Positions 42,946 through 46,584 of a stretch of 64,000 nucleotides of DNA are shown here, piece by piece (the first letter of the stretch is position 1; every line of letters begins with the position of its first letter). Source of the DNA: Bacteroidota bacterium (GTDB taxonomy: Bacteria > Bacteroidota > Ignavibacteria > Tepidaquicellales > Tepidaquicellaceae). Under the pieces are notes generated by a model that ran no database searches, had not been told where the DNA came from, and worked only from the letters and a program-made list of their open reading frames with translations. Location: NCBI GenBank assembly GCA_018266845.1, contig JAFDZO010000011.1, positions 186,001 to 250,000 on the forward strand, read 5' to 3'. The translations under genes were made by a program, and so were the position numbers.

Positions 42946-43015
42946 CCTTACCCGCTATGAAACAGAATTTATCCCGTTAGAATCGGGAGTTTCGTAATGT
43001 TCAAAAAAAGTGGAT

Positions 43016-43198
43016 TCGTTACGAAGCTCACGCTTTGTAGCGTGAAAGTGAATTCGTTACGAAGCTCACGCTTTGTAACGTGAAAGTGAACTCGTTACGA
43101 AGCTCCTGCTTCGTAACGTGAAGGTAAACTCGTTACGAAGCTCCTGCTTCGTAACGTGAAGGTAAACTCGTTACGAAGCTCCTGCTTCGTAACGATAC
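43016..43198. repeat. Tandem array of five 38-bp palindromic repeats
   Basis: Five units start with TCGTTACGAAGCTC at 43016, 43054, 43092, 43130 and 43168; the last is truncated at about 31 bases. Each contains a hairpin such as CGTTACGAAGC-TCCT-GCTTCGTAACG. Units 3 and 4 are identical over 38 bases, while units 1 and 2 differ (CACGCTTTGTARCGTG). A further single relative is at 46270-46295. There are no unique spacers. The array lies between convergent genes. Confidence 0.9.
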
Positions 43199-45263: not shown

Positions 45264-45365
45264 AGGTGAATAAAATAAGGAAAAGCTTTTCTACTTTATA
45301 GGGAGAAAAATATATTGAGGAGAACCCTTATTATTTGAGAAAAATATTTTGTAAATTAATAATCT

Positions 45366-45404
45366 GTTCCCCTCCTTTTCAAGGAGGGGTTAGGGGTGGT
45401 TTAA
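45366..45404. repeat. CCCCTCCTT/AAGGAGGGG palindrome, forward copy
   Basis: GTTCCCCTCCTTTTCAAGGA followed by GGGGTTAGGGGTGGTTTAA forms an 8-bp GC stem with a G-rich tail. The same unit recurs in both orientations across the island. Confidence 0.85.
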
Positions 45405-45429
45405 TGAGTAACAGTTTTCTCAGCATTCG

Positions 45430-45471
45430 TTAAACCCCCTCTAACTCCCCCTTAGCAAAGGGGGAGAACAG
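45430..45471. repeat. CCCCTCCTT family, inverted variant
   Basis: TTAAACCCCCTCTAACTCCC then CCTTAGCAAAGGGGGAGAAC is the reverse-orientation unit in a CCCCC variant. A degenerate half copy (TTTTGAAGGAGAGGACAGGG then GTGGTTAAT) follows at about 45512-45540. Confidence 0.8.
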
Positions 45472-45546
45472 TTAATTTCTTTTCTAATTAGCTAGAAGTA
45501 GTTTATAATACTTTTGAAGGAGAGGACAGGGGTGGTTAATCAATAT

Positions 45547-46076
45547 GTTCCCCTCCTTTTCAAGCTAACATGTATCAGAGTCCCGCTTTAGCGGGAGAGG
45601 GGTTAGGGGTGGTTAATAAAATCTAAAAATTATGAAGCTTTTCAACAAAACAATTCTCAAAGAAAAAAGACAAGCGCTCAGAAACAACGCAACCTTATCT
45701 GAAAAAATTTTATGGAGTAAATTAAAGAAAGGAAATCCGTTTAATTTAAAATTCAGAAGACAATATAGTATCGGAAATTACATTGTGGATTTTTATTGTC
45801 CTGAATTAAAATTAGCGATTGAGATTGACGGCGATTCACACTTTCAGGAAGGCGCAGATAAAAAAGATTTTACAAGAACTAATTTTCTTGAAAGAGAAGG
45901 AATAAATTTAATTAGATTTACAAACAATGATGTTAAGAAAAATTTGCAGCAGGTTTTGGAAGAGATAAATAGAGAAGTTGAGTTGTTAAAACAAGGCAGT
46001 CATTAATTAAACCACTCCTAACTCCTTTCCCGCTAAAGCGGGACTCTCATAAGTCTTAGCTTTCAAGGAGAGGAAC
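45547..46076. mobile_element. Candidate mobile element: DUF559 gene between ~70-bp terminal inverted repeats
   Basis: The left end (45547-45617) reads GTTCCCCTCCTTTTCAAGCT, then AGAGTCCCGCTTTAGCGGGA, then GAGGGGTTAGGGGTGGTTAA. The right end (46006-46076) in reverse complement reads GTTCCTCTCCTTGAAAGCTA, AGAGTCCCGCTTTAGCGGGA, AAGGAGTTAGGAGTGGTTTA. The ends are about four fifths identical by eye. The gene begins 14 bases inside the left end and its stop codon touches the right end. AATAT flanks both sides (45542-45546 and 46077-46081), a possible 5-bp target duplication, weak because it is AT-only. There is no DDE or tyrosine transposase inside. Confidence 0.6.
45632..46006 (+). CDS. DUF559 (Vsr-like PD-(D/E)XK) nuclease
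   Basis: This 124-residue protein has the DUF559 architecture: an N-terminal basic helix (RQALRNNATLSEKILWSKLK), the strand FRRQYSIGNYIVDFYCPE carrying the catalytic Asp, the second strand LKLAIEIDGDSHFQEG with Glu-x-Asp-Gly, and a final NLIRFTNNDVKKNLQQVLEE. The fold is shared with the Vsr mismatch endonuclease, where these acidic residues bind Mg2+. It is exactly contained between inverted repeats. I infer that it recognises or cuts the hairpin repeats. A restriction or repair function unrelated to them is the alternative. Confidence 0.88.
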   Translation: MKLFNKTILKEKRQALRNNATLSEKILWSKLKKGNPFNLKFRRQYSIGNYIVDFYCPELKLAIEIDGDSHFQEGADKKDFTRTNFLEREGINLIRFTNNDVKKNLQQVLEEINREVELLKQGSH

Positions 46077-46131
46077 AATATCAGATTATTGAAGATTGAG
46101 ACATCATAATTTCAAAACTTTATTGGGGTAT

Positions 46132-46194
46132 GTTCTCCCCCTTACCAAGAGCCTGTCCCGCACTTGTTGCGGGAGGGAGTTAGAGGGGGTATAA
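46132..46194. repeat. CCCCTCCTT family copy with an inserted hairpin
   Basis: GTTCTCCCCCTTACCAAGAG is followed by an insert containing CCCGCACTTGTTGCGGG and then AGGGAGTTAGAGGGGGTATA. It is a forward-orientation variant in which the loop has been expanded by a second hairpin, as in the two ends of the DUF559 element. Confidence 0.75.
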
Positions 46195-46212
46195 CGAATA
46201 ATTATAATAAAC

Positions 46213-46254
46213 ATTAAACCACCCCTAACCCCTCCTTGCTAAGGAGGGGAACAA
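46213..46254. repeat. CCCCTCCTT family, inverted copy
   Basis: ATTAAACCACCCCTAACCCC then TCCTTGCTAAGGAGGGGAAC is a well-preserved reverse-orientation unit with an 8-9 bp stem. Confidence 0.85.
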
Positions 46255-46269
46255 CGTCTTAAATCTTCT

Positions 46270-46295
46270 CGTTGCGATGCTCCGGCTTCGCAACG
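46270..46295. repeat. Single REP-like palindrome related to the 38-bp array
   Basis: CGTTGCGATGC-TCCG-GCTTCGCAACG is an inverted repeat with one mismatch. It resembles the core of the tandem array at 43016 (CGTTACGAAGC..GCTTCGTAACG). Confidence 0.7.
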
Positions 46296-46324
46296 TTTAT
46301 TTCCACGCATCAAATCTATTTCTA

Positions 46325-46371
46325 AGTGGGAAACGGGGCTCAAACCTGTGACATTCAGAGCCACAATCTGA
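46325..46371 (-). pseudogene. 3' fragment of a tRNA-His gene
   Basis: On the minus strand TCAGA-TTGTGGC-TCTGA is a complete anticodon arm with anticodon GTG in a canonical seven-base loop. It continues through a short variable region to ACAGG-TTTGAGC-CCCGT, a T-arm with one stem mismatch and T in place of C in the loop, and then TTCCCAC as the acceptor 3' strand. The 5' half (acceptor strand and D-arm) is missing and no CCA follows. Fragments running from the anticodon to the 3' end are what site-specific integration into tRNA genes typically leaves. It lies in the repeat island. Confidence 0.6.
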
Positions 46372-46427
46372 CGGTTATAAAAATAGTTGGATTCTAAATA
46401 TTGTAGTATTTTAATGACTATGAATAT

Positions 46428-46519
46428 GTTCTCCCCCTTACCAAGGGGGAGACAGAGGGGGTTTATCGACTTTTCAAACATTTAACCACCCCTAACCCCT
46501 CCTTGCTAAGGAGAGGAAC
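46428..46519. repeat. Two CCCCTCCTT family copies in opposite orientation
   Basis: GTTCTCCCCCTTACCAAGGG..GAGGGGGTTTA (46428-46465) is a forward variant, and TTTAACCACCCCTAACCCCT..CTAAGGAGAGGAAC (46481-46519) an inverted copy. Together they form a head-to-head pair 15 bases apart. Confidence 0.8.
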
Positions 46520-46584
46520 AGAGTCAGAGACTTTCATCTCTGTTTCATTCTGAGAGTAAATTATTTAGAAATCCCTCTACATAA

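Follow-up and report, generated by a model that had tools for sequence, protein, structure and literature searches.

A small gene encoding a DUF559 nuclease lies between two long inverted repeats in the genome of a bacterium of the Bacteroidota. This raises the question of whether the gene and its repeats constitute a mobile element, as an initial annotation had proposed, and if so what part the nuclease might play in its movement. We have analysed the locus within a window of 64,000 nt (i.e. the whole stretch of DNA examined), together with the remainder of its genome, 395 genomes of the phylum, and loci from other phyla.

Inverted repeats enclosing the DUF559 gene

The gene is enclosed by inverted arms at 45543-45614 and 46010-46081, each of 72 nt, that are 78% complementary and separated by 395 nt. 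The flank-to-flank inverted-repeat score is 88, compared with a maximum of 23 among 1,201 control segments taken from the same window; part of the score is owed to additional units that lie in symmetrical, nested positions beyond the 72-nt arms. The initial annotation had described matching ends of about 70 bases containing an identical internal hairpin, and both features are present. The sequence CCCGCTTTAGCGGG occurs without change in both arms, inside an expanded first loop (loop 1). The placement of the gene is also as had been described, starting just inside the left end and stopping at the right; the ATG is ~16 nt inward of the left unit and the TAA abuts the right unit. DNA folding of the left arm alone gave a z of -1.7, the expanded loop weakening a simple hairpin. 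Comparison with Rfam gave chance matches only, far below gathering scores.

The flanking 5-bp duplication of AATAT that had been proposed is not supported. A 5-mer shared at a fixed place has p ~0.0013, yet only three to four of its five bases lie beyond the unit proper; the T with which the left AATAT ends, and the A with which the right AATAT begins, belong to the unit itself. We do not accept the duplication because comparable units start TGTT, and hence end ...AACA on the other strand, so that the inner bases of the AATAT are conserved unit ends.

Each 72-nt arm is a single copy of a dispersed repeat unit. The canonical unit is TGTT-CCCCTCCTT-loop-AAGGAGGGG-TTA-GGGGTGGTT-TAA, and a second type is TGTT-CTCCCCCTT-loop-AAGGGGGAG-TTA-GAGGGGGTTTAA. 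There is thus a pyrimidine arm, a complementary purine arm and a third block, where GGGGTGGTT is the exact mirror of the purine arm AAGGAGGGG with A replaced by T. A mirrored third block of this kind is the signature of the class II intrastrand-triplex (BoxC/PIT/TM) motifs. Formation of a triplex in vitro has been demonstrated for the E. coli motif (PMC4666352).

Counting remnants, the units number at least nine in 45364-46520, where they are placed symmetrically about the DUF559 gene (Table 1). Their order is W(+), B(-), arm(+), gene, arm(-), B(+), W(-), followed by a further B(+), W(-) pair. A three-block scan of the window found five units, all inside 45368-46516, and both of the gene-flanking arms have the expanded loop 1.

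Table 1. The DUF559 gene and the repeat units around it, in window coordinates
Feature	Position	Strand	Description
Solo triplex unit, type W	45365..45403	+	TGTTCCCCTCCTTTTCAAGGAGGGGTTAGGGGTGGTTTAA; scan match 45368-45402; outer left partner of 46213-46253
Triplex unit, type B	45432..45472	-	TCTCCCCCTTTGCTAAGGGGGAGTTAGAGGGGGTTTAA; inverted partner of 46130-46191
Type-W remnant	45513..45540	+	AAGGAGAGGACAGGGGTGGTTAA; lacks the pyrimidine arm
Left end unit	45544..45616	+	Triplex-type palindrome TGTT-CCCCTCC...-GAGGGG-TTA-GGGGTGGTTAA; extra CCCGCTTTAGCGGG hairpin in loop 1
DUF559 (PF04480, YcjD-like) nuclease gene	45632..46006	+	124 aa; Vsr/EDxHD fold; conserved E24, Q44, D53, E64, D66, H70, D79, R95
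Right end unit	46008..46081	-	Left unit inverted, with identical extra hairpin
Type-B unit with inserted hairpin	46130..46191	+	TGTTCTCCCCCTTACC...GGGAGTTAGAGGGGGTATAA
Solo triplex unit, type W	46213..46253	-	Scan match 46216-46250
Solo triplex unit, type B	46426..46465	+	Scan match 46430-46464
Solo triplex unit, type W	46481..46520	-	Scan match 46484-46516

The units of the source genome were counted by pattern searches. The sequence TTAGGGGTGGTT has eight exact sites in the 3.53 Mb, four of which lie within 1.1 kb of the DUF559 gene of the window. The complete arm also occurs solo, with no gene, at three other places in the genome, with 94%, 90% and 80% identity. A second DUF559 gene of this genome (L002, G000:C28:18426-21731) follows immediately upon a unit from another palindrome family (CTCCCCTCGAGGGGAGTACTTTCGCGAAGCGAAAGGGAGGGGTGTT) that likewise contains an additional hairpin. 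Copies related to the palindrome family beside this second gene (CTCCCCTCGAGGGGAG...GGGAGGGGTGTT) are found elsewhere as inverted doublets (L008-L010). The window further contains a tandem array at 43007-43194, comprising 4.9 copies of a 38-bp palindromic unit (AAAGTGAACTCGTTACGAAGCTCACGCTTCGTAACGTG), and this is a repeat family distinct from the triplex units.

The DUF559 protein

The enclosed open reading frame matches DUF559 (Pfam PF04480) with E = 1.8e-31 and 108.7 bits against a curated cut-off of 20.6. No transposase was found inside the unit by examination of its open reading frames and by profile comparison. The residues E24, Q44, D53, E64, H70, D79 and R95 are identical across 74 free copies of DUF559 and 39 that are embedded in host proteins.

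The predicted structure of the window protein has a pLDDT of 88.6. Used in a fold search, it matched 3hrl (a member of the same family) with Z = 15.9, the catalytic domain of I-Bth0305I with Z = 12.3 (2.8 Å over 96 residues) and Vsr with Z = 9.7, while TnsA and Holliday-junction resolvases came next with Z of 6-7. On the predicted model, therefore, the nearest solved fold outside the DUF559 family is that of a homing endonuclease, I-Bth0305I. Together with conservation of E24, D53, E64, D66, H70 and D79 this places the protein in the EDxHD/Vsr type, an assignment made by fold and not by residue-by-residue motif. This is in keeping with earlier work. YcjD has been related to Vsr (PMC1189080), a 2022 genome paper places a DUF559 gene in the EDxHD family (PMC9403480), and the DUF559 protein VsrA of Caulobacter has been studied as, and proposed to act like, a Vsr-type nuclease (PMC12907096).

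Association of the units with DUF559 genes

A match to DUF559 was found in 222 of the 395 genomes of the phylum, the weakest of which may be distant relatives. Its distribution is patchy, with several copies per genome. Flank inverted-repeat scores of 20 or more were obtained for 52% of 98 DUF559 loci, compared with 3.3% of 8,064 control segments drawn from these loci; at 40 or more the figures are 12% and none. When small open reading frames were taken as the control, 36% of DUF559 loci scored 25 or more, against 2.9%.

Whether DUF559 genes elsewhere have such flanks was checked directly, and most do. A triplex unit lies no more than 400 bp away in 79 of 100 DUF559 loci of the phylum, and on both sides in 55 of them; about one-fifth of the loci are without a scored unit. 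The density of units is 2.49/kb near DUF559 and 0.038/kb elsewhere in the same loci (i.e. a 65-fold difference), and 0.0006/kb in shuffled sequence. Orientation relative to the gene is mixed, with the third block directed toward it in 86 cases and away from it in 113. Nor are the repeats equally common where DUF559 is lacking. One strict form of the motif occurs in 22 genomes, 19 of which have DUF559, compared with 203 of the 373 motif-free genomes (Fisher p = 0.003).

The association is not confined to the phylum. A single scan across genomes of bacteria and archaea yielded 80 DUF559 loci, of which 71 were scored. A triplex unit is present at 49 of the 71, and at 25 of the 27 that lie outside the Bacteroidota. 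The latter span cyanobacteria (Planktothrix and Nostoc), Chloroflexota, Gammaproteobacteria, Planctomycetota and Patescibacteria, and the set includes one archaeal locus, from a Methanophagales MAG. These comparisons show the gene, together with its pair of end units, as a module that recurs in many phyla. Within the Bacteroidota part of the set, 20 of 44 loci have no scored unit, many of them from Pedobacter. The Pedobacter genes L271, L273, L276 and L283 are of this kind, and are possibly domesticated copies, or have end units of another design.

In E. coli K-12 the DUF559 gene ycjD is followed by a BoxC unit, CCCTCGCCCCTCTGGGGAGAGGGTTAGGGTGAGGGG, and the triplex units of E. coli occur as inverted pairs too. 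Most of the ycjD query was matched in 3,333 of 5,375 complete E. coli genomes (~60%). The strains without ycjD do not provide a clean empty site; in those examined a TetR/RND efflux operon occupies the place between fabI and sapF (L079-L080, L075-L077). The solo BoxC between tkt and ypfG was likewise rejected, the alternative alleles carrying one or more REP sequences (L231-L235 compared with L078). We note that two unrelated families of palindrome, BoxC and REP, thus alternate at one place. Relatives of DUF559 are also present in plasmid and phage records.

The exchange of BoxC and REP alleles would be consistent with the palindromes being moved by something else, i.e. a REP-type Y1 transposase or replication slippage, with DUF559 as a cargo that is tolerated, or selected for lying between two units. 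Y1_Tnp genes exist in the source genome, where solo units outnumber DUF559 genes, and three genomes contain the motif with no DUF559. Yet a unit was found at just one of 25 Y1 transposase loci (p = 2e-12), and beside none of the four Y1_Tnp genes of the source genome, compared with 79% of DUF559 genes. Moreover, the catalytic residues are invariant even in DUF559 domains buried within MetH or LeuRS (see below). We consider this explanation unlikely.

DUF559 modules within host proteins

In at least 37 of the 100 DUF559 loci the gene is read in frame within an open reading frame longer than 250 aa. From reading their sequences, we take the hosts to be MetH (in the linker before the cobalamin-binding block), LeuRS (at two sites), RecG, a methylmalonyl-CoA mutase-like protein (MCM), HsdR, HsdM and other restriction enzymes. 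The embedded DUF559 is flanked on both sides by translated palindromes, for example SPSPQPSPSGRGS and PLPLGEDLGEGK. In two HsdR genes (L091 and L096) there are in-frame insertions of the repeat only (translated as SPTGRGQGEG and SPNGRGLDDG), and the same enzyme carries a DUF559 module at another site.

MetH provides the clearest comparison of filled and empty alleles. In one large genus it is interrupted in 11 of 92 genomes and uninterrupted in most. The uninterrupted linkers have the sequence EASKQAGDKQGNGKILMATVKGD, while an interrupted example has CGCCCCCCAGCCCCCGAAGGGGG to the left of DUF559 and CCCCCTTCGGGGGCGGGGGGGGC to the right. The ends of the insert are CGCCCCCC-AG-CCCCC-GAA-GGGGG and CCCCC-TTC-GGGGG-CG-GGGGGGGC. 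In the tree of the host protein the interrupted MetH of one genome (G324) is nested deep among uninterrupted ones, and its DNA is ~90% identical to the empty alleles as far as the junction on either side. The insert thus has the look of a recent acquisition, at a position that other copies have used as well; a single gain would be a simpler history than some five losses. No co-conversion tract was seen beside this insert, the flanks matching the empty alleles to the junction, and no target duplication was seen at the MetH junctions.

At the intergenic, MetH and E. coli sites examined, neither a clean target-site duplication nor an empty site exact to the base was found. Synteny with G395, the one congener found, was rejected as an empty site since what lies upstream of the ABC gene is not the same there. 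For the intergenic site L154 element-free alleles exist in its genus, too diverged to give base-exact ends.

In the tree of DUF559 itself, 17 of 18 MetH inserts fall in one clade, with a single exception. The inserts in RecG, LeuRS site 2, MCM and HsdM also form site-specific clades, while the HsdR inserts at one site do not form one clade. The insert clades and the HsdR exception therefore indicate that the module entered host genes many times and was then mostly inherited; on these trees, much of the in-gene set is inherited and not freshly moved. For the MetH inserts dN is ~0.28 and dS ~1.55 (the latter near saturation), giving a ratio of ~0.18, and thus they are under purifying selection.

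These insertions bear on a second explanation, whereby DUF559 processes triplex or cruciform DNA, either as a repair nuclease like Vsr or as a structure-specific one, the gene is kept beside its substrate by selection or regulation, and the module is immobile. The Vsr fold, the proposal of a Vsr-type role for Caulobacter VsrA (PMC12907096) and the link, in E. coli, between the repeats and local instability of the genome (PMC4666352) would all be in accord with this. But complete modules in the linkers of unrelated essential proteins, with congeners differing in their presence, are unexpected for a resident repair gene, as are the patchy distribution and the several copies per genome. We regard it as distinctly unlikely. 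Both this reading and that of a nuclease carried as cargo, though possible, account less well for the modules found in proteins and for the contrast with Y1 genes.

It might also be argued that the in-gene copies arise by intein-like homing at fixed sites, by a mechanism unrelated to that of the intergenic copies, the repeats of which would be fortuitous. The site-specific clades, the recent gain at the same MetH site and the homing-endonuclease fold point in that direction. However, free and in-gene copies have the same triplex-type ends, the site clades are interspersed with free copies in the tree, and the HsdR copies are not a single clade. By inspection, the translated palindromes alone lie between host sequence and DUF559, with no splicing domain seen. 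We regard a separate mechanism for the in-gene copies as very improbable. Finally, although the units are clustered in this intergenic region, the idea that a nuclease gene in a repeat-rich genome happened to fall between two copies is refuted by the window-segment, phylum-locus and motif-density controls, none of the 1,201 window segments reaching 88 and enrichment over controls being found in ~170 loci across phyla.

A probable mobile element with triplex-type ends

We think it probable that this is a small autonomous mobile element, in which a DUF559 gene lies between inverted palindromes capable of forming intrastrand triplexes, with a homing-type nuclease acting there. The core of the original proposal, i.e. 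a compact mobile element comprising DUF559 and palindromic ends, is thus upheld by the enrichment at the flanks, the solo units and the in-frame inserts compared with uninterrupted relatives, while the AATAT duplication falls away. From the genomes compared, the mobility of the module is well supported. The end units disperse alone, and the module enters intergenic DNA and, in frame, the linkers of host proteins.

The cutting by DUF559, its choice of target and the repair pathway we infer as follows. The nuclease would recognize the structured end units, either as a hairpin or as a hairpin with the third G-rich strand, when exposed during replication. It would then cut or nick at the end units or at similar target sites, and host break repair would copy or rejoin the unit, giving homing-like or break-repair spread. 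The solo units would be a non-autonomous form that the nuclease moves in trans, standing to it as REP sequences stand to RAYTs. In some frames the compact ends contain no stop codon, which would allow the module to survive inside proteins. Homing-like break repair would fit at least as well as the REP/RAYT analogy, since the nearest fold to DUF559 outside its family is that of a homing endonuclease.

BoxC/PIT/TM repeats have been known since the 1990s, with neither their origin nor the enzyme that moves them being known (PMC4666352). The survey of Holder et al. 2015 reported them from >260 genomes, connected them with local instability, and stated that no mobility function had been seen nearby, whether transposase, integrase or another (PMC4666352). 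The end units described here share their three-block design, of a pyrimidine arm, a purine arm with a TTA-type loop, and a mirror purine block; unlike these orphan repeats as known, there is a linked DUF559 gene. On balance we lean towards the view that DUF559 is the long-missing mobility enzyme of the BoxC/PIT/TM repeats. The element would then represent a distinct class, in which a Vsr-fold nuclease recognizes its own triplex-forming ends, autonomous and solo copies spread by break repair, and the module settles repeatedly in frame in essential proteins.

The element resembles several other systems in part. As in REP/RAYT systems, short palindromes occur both as scattered solo copies and in inverted orientation on either side of one small gene. 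However, the protein between the palindromes is a DUF559 protein with a PD-(D/E)XK/Vsr fold, unlike the Y1/HUH transposases of RAYTs, and Y1_Tnp genes are without these flanks. It differs from a classical insertion sequence in having no transposase, in the overlap of AATAT with the unit ends, and in the lack of a duplication at the MetH junctions. EDxHD/Vsr-like homing endonucleases such as I-Bth0305I share the fold, and the insert recently gained at a site used by relatives is a further likeness; unlike I-Bth0305I, there is no intron or intein host and no extra DNA-binding domain, and the element has instead palindromic ends of its own and non-autonomous units that are scattered alone. Rickettsia palindromic elements are palindromes that lie in frame inside protein genes without stopping translation, and they are not known to have a coding partner. 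The in-protein modules are like them in this respect, but carry a nuclease inside.

Our search of the literature (with preprints and most subscription journals outside its scope) found no publication joining DUF559 to triplex repeats. The parts are already known; as far as the literature searched shows, the system that they form is new.

A link between the two would give a testable role both to the orphan repeats and to a small nuclease present in over half of the sampled genomes of the phylum. If true, this would be a unit that spreads itself, and the signal by which it is recognized may be the structure of the DNA. Such a link would also account for the PSPQPSPSGRG and PLPLGEGLGEG stretches that recur in predicted proteins, and for the unusual presence of nuclease domains inside MetH, LeuRS, RecG and restriction enzymes. 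DUF559 would also be a source of compact, possibly structure-directed, nucleases for study.
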